Assembly: GCA_001005265.1 (NCBI GenBank)
Contig: CP011392.1
Coordinates: forward strand, 868,001 to 932,000
Direction: 5' to 3'
From: Dehalogenimonas sp. WBC-2
GTDB taxonomy: Bacteria; Chloroflexota; Dehalococcoidia; Dehalococcoidales; Dehalococcoidaceae
Length of the DNA: 64,000 bases
Shown: positions 1,537-32,857 of the stretch, in pieces
Numbering within the stretch: the first letter of the stretch is position 1
Layout: each line of letters opens with the position of its first letter
The notes under the pieces: generated by a model
What the model saw: only the letters and a program-made list of their open reading frames with translations
Database searches by the model: none
Told to the model about the DNA's origin: nothing
Translations under genes and position numbers: made by a program

Positions 1537-2310
1537 ATGGACAGCAGCGCCCCGAAAGTGATTTCCCCAGACCTTACTTCGATCATTGAACAAATCAGCG
1601 AAAATCTTAGCCATATCATTGAAGAGGAAGGCGACCGTATCCGGGAAAGAGTCGGCGCTGAAACAGCACCGATCATTGCCCGTGCCAGAGATGAGTACAA
1701 GGAACGAATGTCACAGTTCCTTACCGAACAGGCTAAACAGATCAGGGATGAAGCGTCATGGGCTTCTTTCGATATCCTGACTAAGGCGATGGAGGAGAAG
1801 GAACAAATTCTCGCAGCCGCCAAATTAGAAGCCCAGGGAAAAGGCGAAAAATTAATTGCGGAAATGCGGGTTAAAGCCGAAAAGGACATTGCGACCGCCT
1901 CCAGTGTTGCCAGACAGGATGCAGAGCGTTCATTAAACGAATATCTGGCATTAAACCGCCGGAAAGCAGAACAAGAATCAATCAAGCTTATAGCTGAGGC
2001 AAAAGACAAAGCTGAAAACATAATCATCGAAGGTATCGAACGTTCGAAGAAGCAGGCTGAAGAACAAACTAAAGGGGAGATCAAACGTATCATCGATAAT
2101 GCCCAATCGAAGGCACAAGAAATACTCCTTCAAGCTCGTCGAACAGCAGAGGATGAAACAAAGAAGACCCTAGACAAAGCAAGCCGGGATGCCAAGATTT
2201 TAGCTGAGCAGGTTGCGGCTGAAGCGCTTAAAGAAGCCATGTCCAAGCTTGGTTCGAAACTCAAGGAATCTTTTGAGAAAAAGATCTCAGAGACAGGTTC
2301 CAATTCTTAA
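1537..2310 (+). CDS. Uncharacterised amphipathic coiled-coil protein
   Basis: 257 residues, almost wholly helical, rich in Ala, Glu, Lys and Arg. There is no signal peptide and no transmembrane segment. After a short N-terminal segment (to about residue 25) the chain is a long series of charged amphipathic repeats ending in a Lys-rich helix and a short polar tail. The pattern resembles peripheral stalk subunits (V-ATPase E or F-type b) but lacks a membrane anchor, and no ATPase genes are nearby, so that name is not used. A GAGAGG ribosome site precedes the ATG. It resembles in style, though not in length, the 882-residue coiled-coil protein at 8.4 kb. Function unknown. Confidence 0.75.
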   Translation: MDSSAPKVISPDLTSIIEQISENLSHIIEEEGDRIRERVGAETAPIIARARDEYKERMSQFLTEQAKQIRDEASWASFDILTKAMEEKEQILAAAKLEAQGKGEKLIAEMRVKAEKDIATASSVARQDAERSLNEYLALNRRKAEQESIKLIAEAKDKAENIIIEGIERSKKQAEEQTKGEIKRIIDNAQSKAQEILLQARRTAEDETKKTLDKASRDAKILAEQVAAEALKEAMSKLGSKLKESFEKKISETGSNS

Positions 2311-8361: not shown

Positions 8362-8391
8362 TTGCGAATACATTCGTGGCTCGGTTACAAT
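8362..8391 (+). promoter_or_regulatory. Probable promoter of the 882-residue coiled-coil gene
   Basis: TTGCGA (8362-8367), an 18-bp spacer and TACAAT (8386-8391) form a sigma70-like promoter 38 bp upstream of the start at 8430. Confidence 0.5.
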
Positions 8392-8429
8392 GGTTAACAT
8401 CGAAAAGTAGTTTCATATTTGAGGTGTTT

Positions 8430-11078
8430 ATGTCTAGCAAGGAAGAACTTGAGTCAGCTGGTGATAAATCTATAAATGCTTCTAAAGAAGCTGTCCGGGA
8501 AGCTGCCGACCTGGCGCGGGCCGCCCGAAACATAGTTGATAATGCCGAAAGACAGGCGGTTGAAGCCGTAAAACAGGCGGAAAAAGCGGTAAAAACCGCC
8601 GAAGATACGGCCCGCAATTATGTAAAAAACTATGACCGGGCAATTGCCAGGGCGGATGATGCCGCCCGGAAGGCTCAGGAAATTACCGAGAAAAGCGGCC
8701 AGGATACGCAGGAGACAGTTAACCGCGCTGACTCTGCCATCGCTACAATGAAGACTGCGATTGATGAACTTAACCGTAACTATCGCGACAGCAGTCAAAA
8801 AGCTGAACTTACAATCAAAACTATTAAGGATGAAGTGTCTGAGGCAAGAAGAGAAGCCACTCAGGCGCTAACGGCAGCTGAATCAGCAACAAAAAGCATC
8901 AGTGCTGATTCTTCATCCGCCCTGCAGGCAGCTAAGGAATCAGTTGAAACTGCTGAAGAGGCCCGCCGCAGTGCCAAAGCTTTCTCTGAAAGCGGCATCA
9001 AGGCTGTCAATGAAGCTAAATCAGCAACTGAAATGGCGGTCACCGAAGCCAGAAAAGCACTAGAGAGTGTAACTGCTGAAGCTAAACGAGCGATTGAAAC
9101 TGCTGAAGCAAAAGCCAAAGAAGCCGTCAGACGCGCTGAAGCAGTTGTCCGCTCAACTGAAGAAAATTCCACCACGTATGCAGCGAATTACGAGAAAGCT
9201 ATCAATGCCGCGGAGAATGCTTCAATAACTGCCCGACTGGCTGCCGAACAGGCAGACAAGCTATCTAAAGAAGCGATCCAGCGGGCAGATAATTCCGGCC
9301 TCAAGGCAAAAGAAGCCGCAGAAAAGGCAATCCAGTTATCAAATCAAGCCAGCGAAGCCGCGGTTAAAATTGCTGAACAATCATCTGAAAATTGTGTCCG
9401 CGCCTCATCTGAAGCTATTTCCCGGGCAGAGGCAGCAGCCACTAAAGCAAATAAACTGGCCGAACAAATCAGAATCAAAGTTGATAGTGCAACGGCCAGC
9501 GCTGAAACTGCCGGCAGAACTGCCGCGGAAGCTAGTGTACTGGCTACAGGGGCAAAGGATCAGGCTAAAAAAGCCGAACAACAGGCTACAGAGGCTTTTA
9601 CCCAGGCTGAAGCATCTGCGCGGCAAACCGAGCAGACGATTGCTAATGTAGTTACCAAATATGACCAGGCAATTAAAATTGTTGATGTCGCCGCTGCCGA
9701 CGCCAGAAAAGCCGGTGAAAAAGCGGTTACTTTATCTGAAGAAGCGGCGCGGACCGCGGAATCCGCCGGGACTGCAGCTAAACTTGCGGCTGAAAACGCC
9801 GCCAAACTTTCTCAAAAGGCCAGTGAAACCGCGGTTAAAACCGCAGAAAAAGCACTCGACACCAGCGTCCGGACATCTACAGAAGCTATCGCTAAGGCAA
9901 ATGAAACAACCAACCTGGTGGAGAAGGTCGCCAAGGAAGTTACCGAGCTGGCAGCAGATGCTGTTGCCAGAGCTGAGTCTGCCTCAGGAGCCATCACAGG
10001 GGCAGAAATGGCATCTGCCGAAGCAAAACGCGCCGTCGAAACCTTTGAAAGCAAATCAAAGGATGTGGTCAAACGGGCGGAAACGCTGGCACGCCTGACA
10101 GAAAGCACCATTTCTAATAATGCCAAAAATTATGAGAAAGCCATAAAAATAGCCGAGGATACCGCCCTGTCTGCCCAGACAGCCGGAGAACGGGCTATTA
10201 ATTTATCCCAGGAAGCTATGAAACGGGCAGAAAGTGTCGGCCGTTCAGTCAAAGAAGAATCAGAAAAAGCCGCAAAAATGGCTGTTACCGCTAGTGAAAA
10301 TGCGGTCCAAGCGGCCGAGATGGCCAGCGAAACCTGTGTCCGTACTTCAGCAGAAGCAATCTCTAAGGCAGAAGACGCTACCCGTGCGGCGCGAAGGGCG
10401 GCGGAAGAAGCAGGGCGTAATGCTAAAGAAGCTGCTGTCAAAGCAGATGAAGCAGGAAAAGCGGCTACCGCTGCGGCTGAAGCATCTGTAAAAGCGTCTC
10501 AAGAAGCCTTGGAGCGTGTGGCACGGGTCACTGAGGCCGCCAAACTGACTGTTGCCACCTGGATCAAAGAAGCTCAGGTTCACATTCAAACAGTTGAAGA
10601 ACAGAGCCGTACCACGCGTGAAGCGGCTGAGGCTTCCGCCAAGTCTTCACAAGAAACCATGACCCAGATGCAGGCGCTTATTACGTCAGCACGGCAGGCA
10701 AGCGACGAATCTACAAAAGCCGCCCGCGACGCTGTTAAAGCGGCACGACGCGCCGCCCAGGAGGCTGCGAAGGCCTGGATTGATACTTTTCAGGAATTAT
10801 TACAGAGTGCCGGTGAAATTGGCGGTTTTACACGCCAGGTAATAACCGAAACCGGCCAAGAACTGAAGCGACCGGTTTCAAATACCACTTTAAAAACCAG
10901 ACGTTCTAATCCGGTGAAAGAGGAACAAATTGTAGCTCCCGTTATAACGCCAACCCCCAATCCGGAACCGATTAACCAGACACCGCCACCTCGTGAGATA
11001 CTGAAAAACAGAATGGAAATACTTGAGCAAATGTTTAAGGATGCAAAAAATCTGCCACCGGAACCGGCAGATGAATAA
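8430..11078 (+). CDS. Giant Ala-rich coiled-coil protein with 157-residue super-repeats
   Basis: 882 residues from the ATG at 8430, chosen because GAGGTG precedes it; an upstream ATG at 8376 has no ribosome site. There is no signal peptide or membrane segment. Residues about 15-790 are one continuous Ala/Glu/Lys helix. Within it a long module recurs: its mark [NK]Y[ED][KQ]AI begins at nucleotides 9186, 9657 and 10128, exactly 471 bp (157 codons) apart, and about 94 residues after each mark align without gaps, including LS.EA..RA and the R.S.EAI...A segment. A weaker copy starts at 8628. The C-terminus is a Pro-rich linker and an acidic helix (EILEQMFKDAKNLPPE). It faces a CetZ-like gene across a shared terminator. 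A cytoskeletal or scaffold role is inference. Confidence 0.85.
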   Translation: MSSKEELESAGDKSINASKEAVREAADLARAARNIVDNAERQAVEAVKQAEKAVKTAEDTARNYVKNYDRAIARADDAARKAQEITEKSGQDTQETVNRADSAIATMKTAIDELNRNYRDSSQKAELTIKTIKDEVSEARREATQALTAAESATKSISADSSSALQAAKESVETAEEARRSAKAFSESGIKAVNEAKSATEMAVTEARKALESVTAEAKRAIETAEAKAKEAVRRAEAVVRSTEENSTTYAANYEKAINAAENASITARLAAEQADKLSKEAIQRADNSGLKAKEAAEKAIQLSNQASEAAVKIAEQSSENCVRASSEAISRAEAAATKANKLAEQIRIKVDSATASAETAGRTAAEASVLATGAKDQAKKAEQQATEAFTQAEASARQTEQTIANVVTKYDQAIKIVDVAAADARKAGEKAVTLSEEAARTAESAGTAAKLAAENAAKLSQKASETAVKTAEKALDTSVRTSTEAIAKANETTNLVEKVAKEVTELAADAVARAESASGAITGAEMASAEAKRAVETFESKSKDVVKRAETLARLTESTISNNAKNYEKAIKIAEDTALSAQTAGERAINLSQEAMKRAESVGRSVKEESEKAAKMAVTASENAVQAAEMASETCVRTSAEAISKAEDATRAARRAAEEAGRNAKEAAVKADEAGKAATAAAEASVKASQEALERVARVTEAAKLTVATWIKEAQVHIQTVEEQSRTTREAAEASAKSSQETMTQMQALITSARQASDESTKAARDAVKAARRAAQEAAKAWIDTFQELLQSAGEIGGFTRQVITETGQELKRPVSNTTLKTRRSNPVKEEQIVAPVITPTPNPEPINQTPPPREILKNRMEILEQMFKDAKNLPPEPADE

Positions 11079-11102: not shown

Positions 11103-11136
11103 AAAAGCGGCTGAAGCACGAACCTCAGCCGCTTTT
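11103..11136. terminator. Bidirectional terminator between coiled-coil and CetZ-like genes
   Basis: AAAAGCGGCTGA (11103-11114) and TCAGCCGCTTTT (11125-11136) form a perfect 12-bp stem with A and T tracts on either side. It can serve the convergent genes on both strands. Confidence 0.88.
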
Positions 11137-11155: not shown

Positions 11156-12325
11156 TTAAAGCAGTGACGGAATATCCTTGAATGATTCTTCCACTCCCCG
11201 GAAACCATACTCCAATCCTGACTGACGGCGGCGGGAGTTGTTGATATAGCCAATAGTTTTACTGAAGTAGTCCATCACCCGGCTGGAATTAACCAACTCT
11301 GAAAGCACGACAGTAACATCCAACGTTTTGTCACCTCGGGGATAGTCGCCGGTACGGATGGTAGCCTCGGTCGCCATGCCCTTGAGCGCGCCTGACATTT
11401 CGTTGATAAGGTCCATACTCATATCATCATTAGATGCAGTTAAGAGATATAGACCTCTTTTGGCGTCGGTTGCGTTGCAACGAAGGGAAAGATCGGCAAG
11501 GGCAGCACTGATCGCCTCAGCCCCTTTCCTTGTTTCATTGTTTTGTTCCCTGAAGTCTGCATTTTTGTTGAAGCGCAAATTCGGTGTTTTGGTCTGACCA
11601 AAACCGATAACTGTCCAGCCGGACAATGTCTGTATGATATCTCCGCCATCCATCACCTTGGAGCCCACATATTTCGGATTTTTTTCTTCGCCGGCACAAA
11701 GCAGGTTGTAAAACGGCTTAACCATATGATAATTAATTTTATCCAGATTTGCCCGGAGCGAATGACTGGCTTTGATGAATCGCTGGTTGTCCACTAGAAA
11801 TATCGCGTCGGCAACCAGATAGCAGGATTTAAGACATATACCGACATTAAAAATTGAGCGCTCCTCTGTAGCCTCTTCATATGCAAAAGGCAAAACAAGC
11901 ATATTATAAACCGGCTTTTCCGGAAAGCGTTCTTTAATCTGTTGCGATAATACGGATATTGAACCTGAACCGGTGCCGCCGGCAGCTCCGGCTATGAGTA
12001 GAAATGCGTCGGTCTCGGCATAATGCGGGGTATTCTTTATCGCTTCAATGACCTTGTCACCGTCATCCCGGGCGATTTCGGCTCCCATTTCGTTGATTTT
12101 ACCAACGCCATGACCCGAAGTCTTCTGTGACCCGATCAGGATTCGATGTTGATAATCTGATCGGATATGTTCCAACCCGGATAAATCAGTGACATCACTA
12201 TTTACGGCAAGCACGTTGGTCGCAATTTCCACACCGCGTTGAACACGGGCTACTCTGTTTAATTTCGCAAACTGATCAGCTATACGTCCGCCGCATTGTC
12301 CACAACCGACTATCATTAATTTCAT
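11156..12325 (-). CDS. CetZ-like tubulin/FtsZ-superfamily GTPase, paralogue 1
   Basis: 389 residues. The N-terminus MKLMIVGCGQCGGRIADQF is the Rossmann phosphate loop as found in CetZ (GxGQxGG), not the GxGGxG of FtsZ. Then come AVNSDVTDL, RILIG and GHGVG..NEMGAEIA, and the tubulin signature GAAGGTGSG. A T7-loop equivalent with the likely catalytic Asp is MDGGDIIQTLSGW. The C-terminal tail VEESFKDIPSLL resembles the partner-binding tail peptide of FtsZ. GGAGG precedes the ATG. CetZ proteins are known as cell-shape tubulins of archaea; that family knowledge is the basis for the name. A second paralogue lies at 31.7 kb. Polymerisation is predicted, not shown. Confidence 0.88.
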   Translation of the reverse strand: MKLMIVGCGQCGGRIADQFAKLNRVARVQRGVEIATNVLAVNSDVTDLSGLEHIRSDYQHRILIGSQKTSGHGVGKINEMGAEIARDDGDKVIEAIKNTPHYAETDAFLLIAGAAGGTGSGSISVLSQQIKERFPEKPVYNMLVLPFAYEEATEERSIFNVGICLKSCYLVADAIFLVDNQRFIKASHSLRANLDKINYHMVKPFYNLLCAGEEKNPKYVGSKVMDGGDIIQTLSGWTVIGFGQTKTPNLRFNKNADFREQNNETRKGAEAISAALADLSLRCNATDAKRGLYLLTASNDDMSMDLINEMSGALKGMATEATIRTGDYPRGDKTLDVTVVLSELVNSSRVMDYFSKTIGYINNSRRRQSGLEYGFRGVEESFKDIPSLL

Positions 12326-26749: not shown

Positions 26750-29700
26750 GTGAATAGTAAATTTATCTTCCGGTGGTTGCTCGTTCTAATATTCATTCAT
26801 CCTTTATGGGACTTTGAGATACAATCCGGTCTATCATCTGATGAATTCTTGCCCCCGCCATCAATGCAAATCAGTCAACAAGCCACTGATTTAACGATAC
26901 GGCCAACCACGTTGTTTACAACCGTTGTTGGTGCTCAGTTGGCAGATACTGGTCGGCAGATGACAAACATTGCAGTTCTTACCAGAACACCCTCAGCCAA
27001 TGCCCTGGATATCCCTGTTGACTCCAACGTAGAAGTACACTTTAATACCAACATAGCTGAAGGCAGTCTAAATCCCGCCAACTTTATTACATACGGGTCT
27101 ATCTCCGGTAGGATCAATGGTGTTTTTTCACTAATTGACGCGGCGACAGTCATATTCAATCCCGCAACTTATTTCAGTCCTGGTGAAACTATTACTATCA
27201 CCTTAAAGAGTGGGCTTCAAAGTATTGACGGAGGGTATTTAGCTGCACCCACAATATGGCAATTCTCTGTGGCGGGAGGGCAGGGACCAGCGGTGTTTTT
27301 GCCGGGGCAGATTTCAGGCGAGTTCACTAGCAATGACGTGGCATTAGGCGATCTTAACAATGATGGCTTTATTGATGCCTTCATAGCTAACAGCGGCGCC
27401 AATCAGGTATATCTTAATGATGGCAATGGCAGCTTTAGTGACAGCGGGCAATCACTGGGTGATTCGGTCAGCAATGGGGTTAGTTTGGGTGACCTGGATG
27501 GCGACGGCGACCTGGATGCCTTTGTTGCCAACGGCGATGCCAACAAAGTATGGCTCAATAATGGTGCTGGGATTTTCGCCGACAGTGGACAGGTTTTAGG
27601 TAATACGGAAAGTTTGGATGTGGCTTTGGGTGATCTCGATGGTGATGGAGATTTGGATGCTTTCATTGCCAACTTCGGAAGTAACAAAGTGTGGCTAAAT
27701 AACGGAGCAGGAATTTTTACTGAAAGCCAGTCAATGACCGCTGCCAACAGCAACGGCGTCGCGCTAGGCGATCTTGATTCAGATGGTGACCTGGACGCAT
27801 TTGTGGCTAACAGCGTCGTTGCCAACGAGGTTTGGCTTAACAACGGCAACGGGGTTTTTACCAGAAGCTGGATCTCAACCAACGCCGTCACAAGCCTTTC
27901 TGTTTCTCTGGGTGATCTCGATCACGATGGAGATTTAGACGCCTTCATCGCCAACCGTTATGCTAACGAAGTTTGGTTCAACAGCGGCAATGCCAGTTTT
28001 ACCAACAGTGGGCAATCTATCGGAGGCAGTATTTGGAGCACAGATACCGCACTCAGTGATTTTGATGGTGACGGAGATTTGGATGCTTTCACCACAAACG
28101 GGGTGTTAGTCAATACAAATAAATTATGGCTCAACAATGGAAGCGGCGTATTTAGCGCCACTACTCAATCATTAGGTAATACCAATAGCACCGGGGTTGC
28201 TTTGGGAGATTTCAATGGTGATGGTTATATTGATGTCTTTGTTACCAACACCACCTCCAACGAGATCTGGTTGAACGCCAATCCTGGCATTACTATTACA
28301 TCTCCAGTCAATGGAGCAAGTTGGCCAATTGCATCATCCCAAATTATCAGATGGACATCAGTTGGTATTTCAGAAGATATCACAATAGAAATATCCCGCA
28401 ATAACGGTCTTGACTGGGCAACTGTGGCAACCTCAATCACAAATAATGGCTCCTATCCCTGGGTGGTGTCGGGACCTGTCACCAGTCAGGCCAGGATCAG
28501 GATAAGTTCATCAACCAATTCCTCAATCAACAGTGTTTCGGCGTCTTTCACTATTGGCGGGTTGCCGTCCATCACCCAGCATCCCCAAGGGCAGACCATA
28601 ACCTACGGCGCCGATGTCACCTTCAATTCATCCGCCACCGGTGACCCCGAGCCAACCATCCAATGGCAATTAAGTACTGACAGCGGAGAATCCTGGTCTG
28701 ACATACCAAATGCAAACGATACCAGTTATAGCGTGACCAAACCGACTATAAACATGAGTGACTGGCGCTACCGCGCCGTGTTTGAGAATAGCAACGGCAC
28801 CGTAATCACAGACACCGCAATATTAACCATCACTCCTCGTTCCGTAACGGTGAGCGCTGTGGCAAAGAACAAAATTTACGGTGACACGGACCCTGAACTA
28901 ACCTACATTATAACCAATGGCACACTCATCGGTGGAGACAGTTTCTCAGGAGATTTAACCCGCACAAGCGGTGAAAACGTCAGTATCTACGCTATATCAC
29001 AGGGAACACTGGCACTAAACTCCAACTATGTATTGGGTTTTAACGGCGCCAGTCTGAATATTAACAGCAAAGCCGCCTCTGTATCTCCGGGTGCTGAAAC
29101 CAAGATCTACGGCGAAGCTGATCCTGTCTTTACCGGCACGCTCAACGGATTTCTTCCAGCAGACAACGTAACAGCAAATTACAGCCGGGAACCGGGTGAG
29201 GTAGCTGGAACTTATATCATCAGCGCCACCTTAAGCCCGTCAGGTGTTTTGGGTAATTACAACATCATTTACCAAACTGCCACCTTTACCATCATTGCCG
29301 ATCCGGCCCCGGTCTTTACTCAGCAACCGTTGGATCAACAAGTAATCTACGGTGCCGTTGCCACATTTGCCGTCATTATTACCGGAAATCCAACGCCGGA
29401 TATTCAATGGCAGACAAGTACTGATCATGGCATAACCTGGATGGATATAGCAGAGGCGGATACCACTAGTTATGTAATAAGCCGTCCGACGGTTGCTATG
29501 AATGGATGGCAATACCGGGCACTTCTTAGTAACACATCCGGAACAGCTATATCCAACACCGTTTCACTTTTAGTTGATGCCCGGCCAGTCACCGTTGCCG
29601 CCGATGCCCAGGCAAAATTATATGGCAATAATGACCCTTTTCTAAGCTATCAGTTAACTGTAGGTGCATTAGTAAATGGGGATGCTTTTTACGGTAACTT

Positions 29701-31543
29701 GAATCGCACCAGCGGTGAAAATGTTGGTCCGTATCTGATTGACCAAGGCACCCTGTCACTGAATTCTAATTACATATTGCATTTCATAGCAGGCAGTTTG
29801 TCCATCGCACCACGGCCTGTCACAGTTACCGCAGACCCTCAAGCCATAATCTACGGCGATGATGAACCTGTATTAACGTGGCATGTCACTAATAGTTCAT
29901 TAGCCTTTAATGATGTTTTTATCGGCAGTCTCAACCGCGACGTTGGCAATAGTGTTGGCGAATACGTTATTTATCAAGGAAGTCTTGATATTAATCCAAA
30001 TTACTTGCTCAGTTTCAGCGTCGCTTCACTGACTATTGGAGCCAAACCCGCCGCAGTAAACCCGAACCCGCTGAGCAAAATCGTTGGTACCCCGGACCCG
30101 GAATTAACAGGCATTTTAAGCGGATTTTTACCAGCAGACAACATCACCGCCAGTTATCAACGCGTTGGAGGTGAAACCCTCGGCAGCTATATTATAAACG
30201 CCATTCTGAACCCTGTATCAGTTTTGAACAATTACAGCATTACCTATAACACAGCTAGTTTTGTTATCACCACTGATCCATCTCCAGTCATCATCCAACA
30301 ACCGGTGGCTCAAACAATAACATATGGCAACAATGTGTTCTTTTCCTCTAATGCTAGCGGTACTCCCATGCCGTCTGTACAGTGGCAGGTAAGTACCGAT
30401 CAAGGTAACATCTGGACTTATATTCAAGATGCAGCCCAGTTAACCCTCACAATCATCAAACCCACTGTTGATATGAACGGCAGACAATACCGTGCGGTTT
30501 TTACCAATTCAGCAGGTTCCCGATATACCGATGCTGTTCTCCTAACGGTGGAGCCTAAATTAGCCACACCTTCTGTTTTGATTGCCAGCAAGACTTATGA
30601 CGGCACACTAACCGCAACAATAGTCTCAAGGTCACTGTCCGGCGTTATTCAAGGGGATGATGTTACCCTGTATGGCGGTAGCGCTGTCTTTACTACTAAA
30701 GATATTGACAACAACAAAACTGTTACCATTACTGGTCTGACCCTGGGTGGTTTGCAGGCCGGTAATTACCAATTATCACTGAATGTTATCTCCACAATAG
30801 CCAACATAACCACACCGCTGTTGGCCGGAACCAGCTTTACCGGGTCACAGATTGGAGGTTACGGCTTTACCGGCAATTCTCCCTTTATAGATGATAGCGG
30901 CAAAACCGTCACCGCCGGGATGTTATCCACCGAAAACGGCCAACTGAGTCTATTTATCCCGGACGGTGTGTATATTTGGAACAGTGCCGGTACGGTTCAA
31001 TTATCTCTGTCAGTCCTCAGTCTAACGGAACCGCCTGACCAGTCGCCTCAAAACGGATTGTTGTTTGCTTATGAACTTGGTCCCAGCGGTAGCATCTTCA
31101 ACCCGGGTATTTCTCTAACCTGCTCTTATACAGCCTCATTGCTGCCGTCCGACAGTATTGAAACTGACCTGTATATTGCCTGGTGGGATGGCTATCAATG
31201 GATTAGGCTGGCTAGCGCAGTCGACACAAACAATCACACTGTCACGACATTAATTAAACACTTTTCCACCTACGCTCTTTTTGCCCAAACACCCACACCG
31301 GTTGCTGAGGTTGTTACTCCGACTCCAGATATAGAAGCGGATGTTACTTCAATACCAGTTCCAGTGACTGACATGACCCCGCCTCAGACCGATGCATCGT
31401 CGGCAACCCCTGTTATAACTCCATTGGATAATCATAAATCTGACACTTTAACATTCATTCTTGTAGCCCTGTGTGCGGTTTCAGTTTTAGGTATCATCAT
31501 GCTCAGATTAAGACGAAACAGGCGGTACAATCATTATCCTTAG
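26750..31543 (+). CDS. Large secreted, membrane-anchored adhesin-like protein (FG-GAP, Ig-like, MBG repeats)
   Basis: 1597 residues, GTG start. Order: signal peptide (1-29); SbsA-type Ig domain (about 75-173); seven FG-GAP/VCBS repeats of 46-48 residues, each with a calcium loop like DLDGDGDLDAF (about 178-505), enough for one seven-bladed propeller; a Ser/Thr-rich Ig-like domain (510-600); three Ig-like domains near 603-695, 850-943 and 1175-1268, each with IQWQ or VQWQ; five MBG-type repeats (marks KIYGD, KLYGN, IIYGD) between them; one YDG domain (1270-1355); a C-terminal globular part; a Pro/Thr stalk; and a transmembrane helix at about 1566-1585 followed by RLRRNRR. It would stand on the outer face of the cell membrane. 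Binding partner unknown. Confidence 0.9.
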   Translation: MNSKFIFRWLLVLIFIHPLWDFEIQSGLSSDEFLPPPSMQISQQATDLTIRPTTLFTTVVGAQLADTGRQMTNIAVLTRTPSANALDIPVDSNVEVHFNTNIAEGSLNPANFITYGSISGRINGVFSLIDAATVIFNPATYFSPGETITITLKSGLQSIDGGYLAAPTIWQFSVAGGQGPAVFLPGQISGEFTSNDVALGDLNNDGFIDAFIANSGANQVYLNDGNGSFSDSGQSLGDSVSNGVSLGDLDGDGDLDAFVANGDANKVWLNNGAGIFADSGQVLGNTESLDVALGDLDGDGDLDAFIANFGSNKVWLNNGAGIFTESQSMTAANSNGVALGDLDSDGDLDAFVANSVVANEVWLNNGNGVFTRSWISTNAVTSLSVSLGDLDHDGDLDAFIANRYANEVWFNSGNASFTNSGQSIGGSIWSTDTALSDFDGDGDLDAFTTNGVLVNTNKLWLNNGSGVFSATTQSLGNTNSTGVALGDFNGDGYIDVFVTNTTSNEIWLNANPGITITSPVNGASWPIASSQIIRWTSVGISEDITIEISRNNGLDWATVATSITNNGSYPWVVSGPVTSQARIRISSSTNSSINSVSASFTIGGLPSITQHPQGQTITYGADVTFNSSATGDPEPTIQWQLSTDSGESWSDIPNANDTSYSVTKPTINMSDWRYRAVFENSNGTVITDTAILTITPRSVTVSAVAKNKIYGDTDPELTYIITNGTLIGGDSFSGDLTRTSGENVSIYAISQGTLALNSNYVLGFNGASLNINSKAASVSPGAETKIYGEADPVFTGTLNGFLPADNVTANYSREPGEVAGTYIISATLSPSGVLGNYNIIYQTATFTIIADPAPVFTQQPLDQQVIYGAVATFAVIITGNPTPDIQWQTSTDHGITWMDIAEADTTSYVISRPTVAMNGWQYRALLSNTSGTAISNTVSLLVDARPVTVAADAQAKLYGNNDPFLSYQLTVGALVNGDAFYGNLNRTSGENVGPYLIDQGTLSLNSNYILHFIAGSLSIAPRPVTVTADPQAIIYGDDEPVLTWHVTNSSLAFNDVFIGSLNRDVGNSVGEYVIYQGSLDINPNYLLSFSVASLTIGAKPAAVNPNPLSKIVGTPDPELTGILSGFLPADNITASYQRVGGETLGSYIINAILNPVSVLNNYSITYNTASFVITTDPSPVIIQQPVAQTITYGNNVFFSSNASGTPMPSVQWQVSTDQGNIWTYIQDAAQLTLTIIKPTVDMNGRQYRAVFTNSAGSRYTDAVLLTVEPKLATPSVLIASKTYDGTLTATIVSRSLSGVIQGDDVTLYGGSAVFTTKDIDNNKTVTITGLTLGGLQAGNYQLSLNVISTIANITTPLLAGTSFTGSQIGGYGFTGNSPFIDDSGKTVTAGMLSTENGQLSLFIPDGVYIWNSAGTVQLSLSVLSLTEPPDQSPQNGLLFAYELGPSGSIFNPGISLTCSYTASLLPSDSIETDLYIAWWDGYQWIRLASAVDTNNHTVTTLIKHFSTYALFAQTPTPVAEVVTPTPDIEADVTSIPVPVTDMTPPQTDASSATPVITPLDNHKSDTLTFILVALCAVSVLGIIMLRLRRNRRYNHYP

Positions 31544-31678: not shown

Positions 31679-32857
31679 ATGAAGCTGGTCGTAGTCGGTT
31701 TGGGACAGGCCGGGGGCAGACTCGCGGATGAATTCGCCCGGATCGCCATCAAAGCACGGCAGGAGCGGAACTTGAGCATCGCCACCGATATCCTGGCGAT
31801 AAATACTGATACTGCTGATCTTTCCTCTCTGACTAGAGTGAAAAAGGATTCCCATCACCGCATTCTCATAGGTGTCGGCCAAACCGGGGGTCACGGTGTA
31901 GCCAAAATATCCGAAACTGGCGCCGAGATAGCTAAAGAGGAAACCAGCGCCCTCATTGGTATAATGAAAAAAAACAAGCATTTTTATGACGCTGATGCCC
32001 TGCTGTTGATGGCTTCAGGCGGTGGCGGAACTGGTTCAGGCAGTTTGCCGGTACTGGCACAGGCATTCAGGGAAAATTTTCGGGACAAACCGGTCTATTC
32101 TATGGTGGCTCTGCCTTTTGAGCACGAACGGCAGAATGAAGAGCGTGCCGTTTTTAACACCGCCATGTGTCTCAAATCTGCCAATCAAGTGTCAGACGCA
32201 GTGATCCTGGTGGACAATCAGCGATTCATCCGCAAGAACCAGACCCTTGCAAGCAATTTTCAAAAGATCAACGAAATGATTGTCACGCCGTTTTTTAATC
32301 TGCTTTGCTCAGGCGAGGAACGTAAAACAAAGTCTATCGGTACATCAGTGCTGGATACCGGTGACATAAAAGAGACCCTCAGAGGTTGGACTGGTATTGG
32401 TTATGGCACTGTGCCACTTGATCTTATCGTATTGCCGTTTGAAAAGACCCGTGATTATCTCAAGAAGAATTTTGAGAATCAGCGTGGGCTTTACGCCATG
32501 GATGAGGCGCTGGCGGAAATGTCGGTTGCCTGCAATCCTGTAGATACAGGCCGGGCTGGCTTGCTGGTGTCCGGTCCTACCCGGGAAATCAGTGTGGAAC
32601 TAATGAAGGATCTTTCTGAACGGCTGCGGGAAGTGGCTCCATCGGCTCAACAGCGTATCGGCGACTACCCCCGGGAACGTGGCATCCTGGATGTCACTCT
32701 TATTTTATCTGATCTTTCAGATGTCCCTATCCTACGGCAATTTTACCAAGACTCAACCGACCTGGCAGCAGAATTCAAAGCGCGGCAGAAGACCCACGCT
32801 GCAAAAAGCGACCTGACTATGGAAGCCGCCGAAGGTATCCCGACGCTGTTAGACTAA
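31679..32857 (+). CDS. CetZ-like tubulin/FtsZ-superfamily GTPase, paralogue 2
   Basis: 392 residues, clearly related to the protein at 11156-12325 over its whole length. The phosphate loop is VVGLGQAGGRLADEFA; then AINTDTADL, HRILIGVGQTGGHGV and ETGAEIA; the tubulin signature is SGGGGTGSG, a better match to the consensus than in paralogue 1. The T7-loop equivalent is LDTGDIKETLRGW. Shared blocks are KPVYSM..LPFE, FNTAMCLKS and LVDNQRFI. The tail ends in GIPTLLD, like the DIPSLL end of paralogue 1. It has its own TTGACA promoter and AGGAGG site, suggesting good expression. The predicted role is a GTP-dependent filament; whether the two co-polymerise is unknown. Confidence 0.9.
   Translation: MKLVVVGLGQAGGRLADEFARIAIKARQERNLSIATDILAINTDTADLSSLTRVKKDSHHRILIGVGQTGGHGVAKISETGAEIAKEETSALIGIMKKNKHFYDADALLLMASGGGGTGSGSLPVLAQAFRENFRDKPVYSMVALPFEHERQNEERAVFNTAMCLKSANQVSDAVILVDNQRFIRKNQTLASNFQKINEMIVTPFFNLLCSGEERKTKSIGTSVLDTGDIKETLRGWTGIGYGTVPLDLIVLPFEKTRDYLKKNFENQRGLYAMDEALAEMSVACNPVDTGRAGLLVSGPTREISVELMKDLSERLREVAPSAQQRIGDYPRERGILDVTLILSDLSDVPILRQFYQDSTDLAAEFKARQKTHAAKSDLTMEAAEGIPTLLD

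Follow-up and report, generated by a model that had tools for sequence, protein, structure and literature searches.

A CetZ-like tubulin homologue and a neighbouring rod protein as a candidate cytoskeletal module of wall-less Dehalococcoidales

What is a tubulin relative of CetZ type doing in the bacterium Dehalogenimonas sp. WBC-2, and with what does it work? The gene lies in a stretch of 64,000 nucleotides (the window; positions 868001-932000 of the single contig, CP011392.1, of a 1,725,728-bp genome; window GC content 48%), to which all coordinates refer unless the genome is named. The initial annotation read the ORF at 11156-12325 as a CetZ-like homologue and quoted four peptides from it; all four are present, and the strand is minus. 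The features are:

11156-12325, minus strand: cetZ-A, a CetZ-family tubulin of 389 residues (ORF, Pfam, trees, AlphaFold model).
12281-12307, minus strand: T1 nucleotide-binding loop GCGQCGGRI, residues 7-15; G7, G9, Q10 and G12 never vary among 63 homologues.
12071-12115, minus strand: the GHGVGKINEMGAEIA block, residues 71-85, common to H. volcanii CetZ1 (GHGVGADNELGAEIA).
11963-11989, minus strand: T4 phosphate loop and tubulin signature GAAGGTGSG, residues 113-121 (ORF, alignment).
11639-11650, minus strand: T7-loop acids D226 and D229, both invariant in 63 of 63 homologues.
11159-11176, minus strand: C-terminal peptide DIPSLL, residues 384-389, the last residues of the protein.

The gene starts with ATG, a short distance downstream of GGAGG. 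Its assignment to the CetZ family holds up against profiles, predicted structure and phylogeny. CetZ-A matches Pfam Tubulin (PF00091) at 1.5e-28 (100.9 bits; curated cut-off 33) and CetZ_C (PF21011) at 6.3e-19 (68.5 bits; curated cut-off 21.6), whereas it scores 49.7 bits against the FtsZ equivalog TIGR00065, far under the cut-off of 295.2, and yields no match up to E 0.1 to FtsZ_C (PF12327), a domain that both FtsZ proteins of the host genome possess. The best matches of a CetZ-A profile search are H. volcanii CetZ1 (1.6e-60) and CetZ2 (2.5e-45). An AlphaFold2 model built from an alignment of 63 relatives (pLDDT 87.7, pTM 0.88) gives a predicted CetZ fold: among solved structures, H. volcanii CetZ2 (4b45, Z 44.8) and CetZ1 (4b46, Z 44.5) stand at the top and Methanosaeta thermophila CetZ (3zid, Z 38.1) follows, all three ahead of FtsZ (Z 35.1 and below). 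TubZ, BtubA/B and the Asgard tubulins share the superfamily fold, with lower structural scores for OdinTubulin (Z 33.7) and BtubA (Z 32.9). The guanine-nucleotide motifs are intact: N42, the GGTGSG core, N180, D226 and D229 are invariant in the alignment of 63 proteins. D229 aligns with E218 of H. volcanii CetZ1, reportedly the GTPase residue that the first CetZ study altered.

Several simpler accounts of the gene were discarded. Duplication of an ftsZ is ruled out by Pfam, TIGR00065 and the trees, and chance occurrence of the motifs by Pfam scores over the cut-off together with the conserved tail motif. Viral tubulin domains match at only 23-32% identity, which disposes of a phage source; plasmid matches (22-33%) are all haloarchaeal, which disposes of a plasmid source. 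Assembly contamination is rejected on the grounds that the genome is one contig and that orthologues extend across the whole order.

Two trees, of 78 and 36 rows, refine the assignment. Their archaeal rows are mostly haloarchaeal (plasmid-borne genes and PDB entries), and their only tubulin rows are four viral metagenome sequences. FtsZ separates from the CetZ side, CetZ-A included, at 100/100 in both trees, and the four viral tubulins are placed outside in the 36-row tree. The Dehalococcoidia-type CetZ proteins form a clade of their own apart from haloarchaeal CetZ (archaeal side 90/97 and 94/94), containing three groups: A, with support of 100/97 or better, B (100/92), and C, which is partly a grade. 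In these two trees, with archaea mostly haloarchaeal, CetZ-A does not lie inside the canonical archaeal CetZ clade, and it is filed here as CetZ-like, on a bacterial branch. Eight genomes from other families of Dehalococcoidia carry a CetZ of archaeal type that clusters with haloarchaeal CetZ, probably a second acquisition; since this archaeal-type protein sits on the haloarchaeal side of the tree, the class holds two CetZ lineages. Archaeal-type genes at seven loci match CetZ_C at E 1e-26 to 1e-40 and have no IP tail.

CetZ-A is not the only such protein of its host, whose genome encodes five members of the tubulin superfamily: the FtsZ of two ftsA-ftsZ pairs, and three proteins of CetZ type, A, B and C. 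The second lies within the window and had been overlooked, as had the third and the gene adjoining cetZ-A:

31679-32857, plus strand: cetZ-B, a second CetZ-family paralogue of 392 residues ending in GIPTLLD, directly upstream of the nuo operon.

It is 20 kb from cetZ-A, and other Dehalogenimonas genomes place it likewise beside nuo. Host cetZ-C lies elsewhere in the genome, behind GAPDH. Two short fragments at genome positions 294927-295180 (minus strand), resembling CetZ residues 300-358 and 1-24, are perhaps the remnant of a fourth gene. Just upstream of cetZ-B, at 26750-31543 (plus strand), is an ORF of 1597 residues in which FG-GAP/VCBS-like and MBG-like repeats and a C-terminal membrane helix were recognised by eye; its product is a probable surface protein.

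Of 41 Dehalococcoidales genomes, 35 contain CetZ_C, and in a sample of 400 genomes from the phylum all 25 matches fall within the class Dehalococcoidia. A scan of GTDB contigs returned 291 relatives; among the best 78 loci, nearly every title names Dehalococcoidales, Dehalococcoidia or Chloroflexi. CetZ genes also turn up in four metagenome-assembled loci titled Deltaproteobacteria or Syntrophaceae; gene order at one of them, L114, is Dehalococcoidales-like (gapA-cetZ-cetZ-dnaX-ybaB), and these assemblies are probably misnamed or misbinned. At three loci, in Dehalogenimonas genomes that have none of groups A, B and C, there is a CetZ devoid of the tail (group X). The existence of three orthologous CetZ groups across Dehalococcoidales appears to be new.

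The bare existence of CetZ-like proteins in Dehalococcoidia is not: Santana-Molina et al. 2023 (PMC9871819) mention them in one phylogeny sentence as 'sparse paraphyletic groups', very probably the same proteins or relatives, and remark on coiled-coil genes in the neighbourhood of archaeal CetZ-like ones. The text examined of that paper does not contain the orthologous groups, the tail, the rod partner, their joint loss or the exclusion of penicillin-binding proteins described below, and the literature searched yielded no description of the last four. The initial annotation described CetZ as chiefly known from archaea. Recent papers still call it archaea-specific (PMC9856176, PMC11621097); its Dehalococcoidia relatives had been noted in 2023 (PMC9871819). 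With archaeal CetZ (H. volcanii CetZ1 and CetZ2, M. thermophila CetZ) CetZ-A shares the tubulin GTPase domain and CetZ_C, the T1, T4 and T7 motifs, the fold and a short conserved end peptide after a variable linker; it differs from that mostly haloarchaeal set in its own bacterial clade at about 30% identity, a proline in the tail, Asp for Glu in the T7 column, and a rod partner. With bacterial FtsZ it shares the superfamily, the GTPase motifs and an IP-containing C-terminal peptide; in addition to the profile and tree differences, no ftsA adjoins its gene.

That peptide, DIPSLL, was also likened at the outset to the tail by which FtsZ binds its partners. The C-terminal IP-containing peptide of FtsZ binds FtsA, ZipA or SepF. 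Scored as [ILV]-P-x-[LFV] following a small or acidic residue within the last 12 residues, the tail motif (consensus [DE]-[IVL]-P-[ST]-L-L) is carried by 146 of the 153 distinct CetZ proteins of Dehalococcoidia type, in 84 cases as DIPSLL itself; only 2 of 1098 other ORFs have it. Pro386 is invariant in all 63 aligned proteins (entropy 0), whereas the linker before the tail is variable (2.27 bits per column). Archaeal-type CetZ of Dehalococcoidia and group X are without the tail. The tail does resemble that of FtsZ: the FtsZ tail peptides of the host are LEIPAFLR and LDVPSFLR, those of host and relatives generally are [DE][IV]P[AST]F[LM]R-like, and DIPSLL shares [DE]IP[ST]; but L replaces F, DIPSLL is the protein end with no basic residues following, and archaeal CetZ also has a conserved peptide at the same place, proline-free (GELDPLF, GELDALF, DELDSIFN, DRLENLF). 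With likenesses to both, the Dehalococcoidia tail is intermediate, and as a terminal peptide of CetZ it appears to be new. SepF, sought in the host genome only, was not found there and was dropped as a candidate adaptor. Because the host has two FtsA proteins and no detectable SepF, FtsA, common to both FtsZ, is the likeliest partner, and the CetZ tail may bind it.

The stable neighbour of cetZ-A is a gene for a rod-like protein:

8376-11078, plus strand: long Ala-rich helical rod protein, 900 residues as listed, convergent with cetZ-A (a likelier start is the ATG at 8430).
11010-11036, plus strand: rod end motif RMEILEQMF, residues 879-887 (consensus R[LM][ED]xLx[RKQ]M[YF]).
11103-11136, no strand assigned: intergenic hairpin (z -3.7) with a run of A and a run of T at its sides, probably a terminator for both convergent genes.

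The rod ORF has no match in Pfam or NCBIfam. A single sharp period of hydrophobicity and charge, 3.57 residues, runs along its full length, and other members of the family have periods of 3.57-3.59; these fall between 3.50 and 3.67, so that a plain heptad or 11-residue coil is excluded. Repeat offsets are 11, 18, 25 and 157 residues. An AlphaFold prediction made without an alignment (pLDDT 55) is usable solely for the statement that nearly all of the protein is helix. Another ORF of coil-like composition (257 residues; few Pro or Gly, few aromatics) lies at 1537-2310, plus strand.

Adjacency was scored by an automatic rule of amino-acid composition and position, the rods being of low complexity; by this rule 58 of the 68 group-A loci that could be scored have a convergent coil. 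Among the ten that do not, at least three (L035, L063, L076) possess a rod bearing the end motif but narrowly missed by the rule, and at L052 the rod is on the other side. The end motif lies within 75 residues of the C-terminus in 60 of 63 CetZ-linked rods and in 4 of 1500 background ORFs. Rod homologues are present in all six genomes with a tailed CetZ (G000, G001, G002, G006, G011, G012) and in none of six without one (G003, G004, G005, G007, G013, G014); in G003, G004 and G007 the only CetZ is tail-less group X. The pairing and the joint loss of tailed CetZ and rod appear to be new. Common expression or common descent may account for the gene pairing and for the joint presence.

In most families a third gene stands between cetZ-A and the rod, encoding a helical protein of 130-190 residues with a conserved AYxAYxEAQ core; the window has none. 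The commonest layout, probably ancestral, is eno-gapA-cetZ-A, then rod and small gene on the opposite strand, then cetZ-C-dnaX-ybaB-recR. Such neighbours raise the thought that these paralogues serve as scaffolds for metabolism or for DNA transactions, with group C in an eno-gapA-cetZ-dnaX-ybaB-recR cluster and group B beside nuo: GAPDH is immediately upstream and dnaX, ybaB and recR are downstream in many families, CetZ-B precedes nuo genes in several genomes, and links between CetZ and metabolism genes have been proposed for archaea (PMC9856176). The cetZ-A of the window genome, however, does not adjoin these genes, and what stays beside it is the rod; this explanation is highly improbable.

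A second class of rods has KPLPQILDEM in its N-terminal part and, at the C-terminus, a hydrophobic helix whose hydropathy averages 2.7-2.9 across 19 residues. The examined loci contain seven members, two of them near cetZ and five by ftsA1-ftsZ1: directly beside it in four Dehalogenimonas genomes (G000, G001, G002, G006) and near it in G011. In the host this tail-anchored Ala-rich rod (730 residues; L016:6241-8433, genome positions 689240-691432) is convergent with ftsA1-ftsZ1, and more family members lie near genome positions 824000 and 1571000. Homologues occur in many members of the order, Dehalococcoides included, and none that is convincing in the six genomes without tailed CetZ; weak matches in G003 and G007 (E 8e-5 and 5e-4) correspond to a different gene, which has its equivalent in the host genome. 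Some CetZ-bearing draft genomes (G016, G022, G027) are without a tail-anchored rod, which is therefore not obligatory.

The position of these rods bears on the possibility that CetZ-A serves chiefly as an accessory to division, with a tail competing for or sharing FtsA with FtsZ1 and FtsZ2 and helping to build or constrict the ring, as may be compared with archaea that have more than one FtsZ. The resemblance of CetZ and FtsZ tails within one genome, the two FtsA of the host with SepF not found, and a tail-anchored rod beside or near ftsA1-ftsZ1 in five genomes all fit. On the other hand, two ftsA-ftsZ pairs are already at hand, two FtsZ persist in genomes without CetZ A, B or C, cetZ-A lies outside any division gene cluster, and archaeal CetZ has proline-free tails at the same place. 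A primarily divisional role is unlikely, though it deserves to be kept in sight.

The setting in which CetZ-A operates is a cell without a peptidoglycan wall. The wall-poor host that the initial annotation supposed is corroborated across the order sample: a PBP transpeptidase is found in 0 of 13 genomes of the order by a search that finds it in 10 of 14 controls. Among 148 Dehalococcoidia genomes, 34 have CetZ, 67 have a PBP transpeptidase and none has both (hypergeometric P 2e-11, uncorrected for common descent). There was one ancestral loss of peptidoglycan (PMC10284905), and the exclusion, resting largely on it, does not represent many independent events; as an observation in Dehalococcoidia it appears to be new. 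MreB was dropped as a component of the host cytoskeleton when its matches in the host genome proved to be only FtsA and DnaK, the same pattern being seen in relatives.

It had been suggested that Dehalococcoidia cells owe their flat or disc-like form to a CetZ filament. With wall and MreB absent, shape must have another source, and CetZ is confined to genomes without PBP. Against this, the module-bearing genomes include both Dehalococcoides (G010) and Dehalogenimonas, whose reported shapes differ, and G003 and G007, of the 4OHTPN or apparent D. alkenigignens clade, have neither CetZ A, B or C nor rods. CetZ1 does govern shape in H. volcanii (PMC11621097). Cells of D. alkenigignens, however, are given as 'irregular cocci to disk-shaped' (PMC4918011); such a species, with an apparent clade that is without the module, does not favour CetZ as the determinant of the disc, and this suggestion is improbable.

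The account preferred here, on which belief and doubt are about evenly balanced, is that the product of cetZ-A is the GTPase that polymerises within a conserved cytoskeletal module, forming with the rod a cortical scaffold in wall-less Dehalococcoidales. It draws on what genome sequences provide directly: the family, the intact active site, the conserved peptides, the pairing and co-occurrence, and the wall-less setting. CetZ-A would bind GTP and form filaments, which the rod would bundle, space or bridge, perhaps by way of its R[LM][ED]xLxxM[YF] end. The DIPSLL tail would dock on an adaptor, FtsA for preference, placing CetZ, rod and FtsA in presumptive contact, and the network would be held to the membrane by the tail-anchored rods whose genes adjoin ftsZ1 or cetZ. 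Such a module would organise the cell envelope and division without peptidoglycan or MreB, and would not be a specific switch for the disc shape. It is dispensable, for several Dehalogenimonas have lost tailed CetZ and rods and yet live as cocci or discs. A more ambitious version, doubtful as a whole but a genuine possibility, is a composite cytoskeleton in which straight coiled-coil rods of up to ~900 residues join CetZ filaments through terminal peptides while tail-anchored rods attach both this network and the FtsZ ring to the membrane, the whole having spread after the loss of peptidoglycan and taken over the mechanics of the wall.

No description of a CetZ-coiled-coil module, or of Dehalococcoides coiled coils, was found in the literature searched, and the pairing of CetZ-A with the rod points to an undescribed internal skeleton. 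A bacterial order without wall and MreB (and, in the window genome, SepF) possesses as many as three CetZ-like proteins or more. Archaeal CetZ has few known partners, and the rod is a candidate for one. How wall-less cells keep their shape and divide thereby becomes accessible to experiment in dechlorinating bacteria that are in culture and of environmental importance, and strains that have naturally lost the genes can serve as controls.
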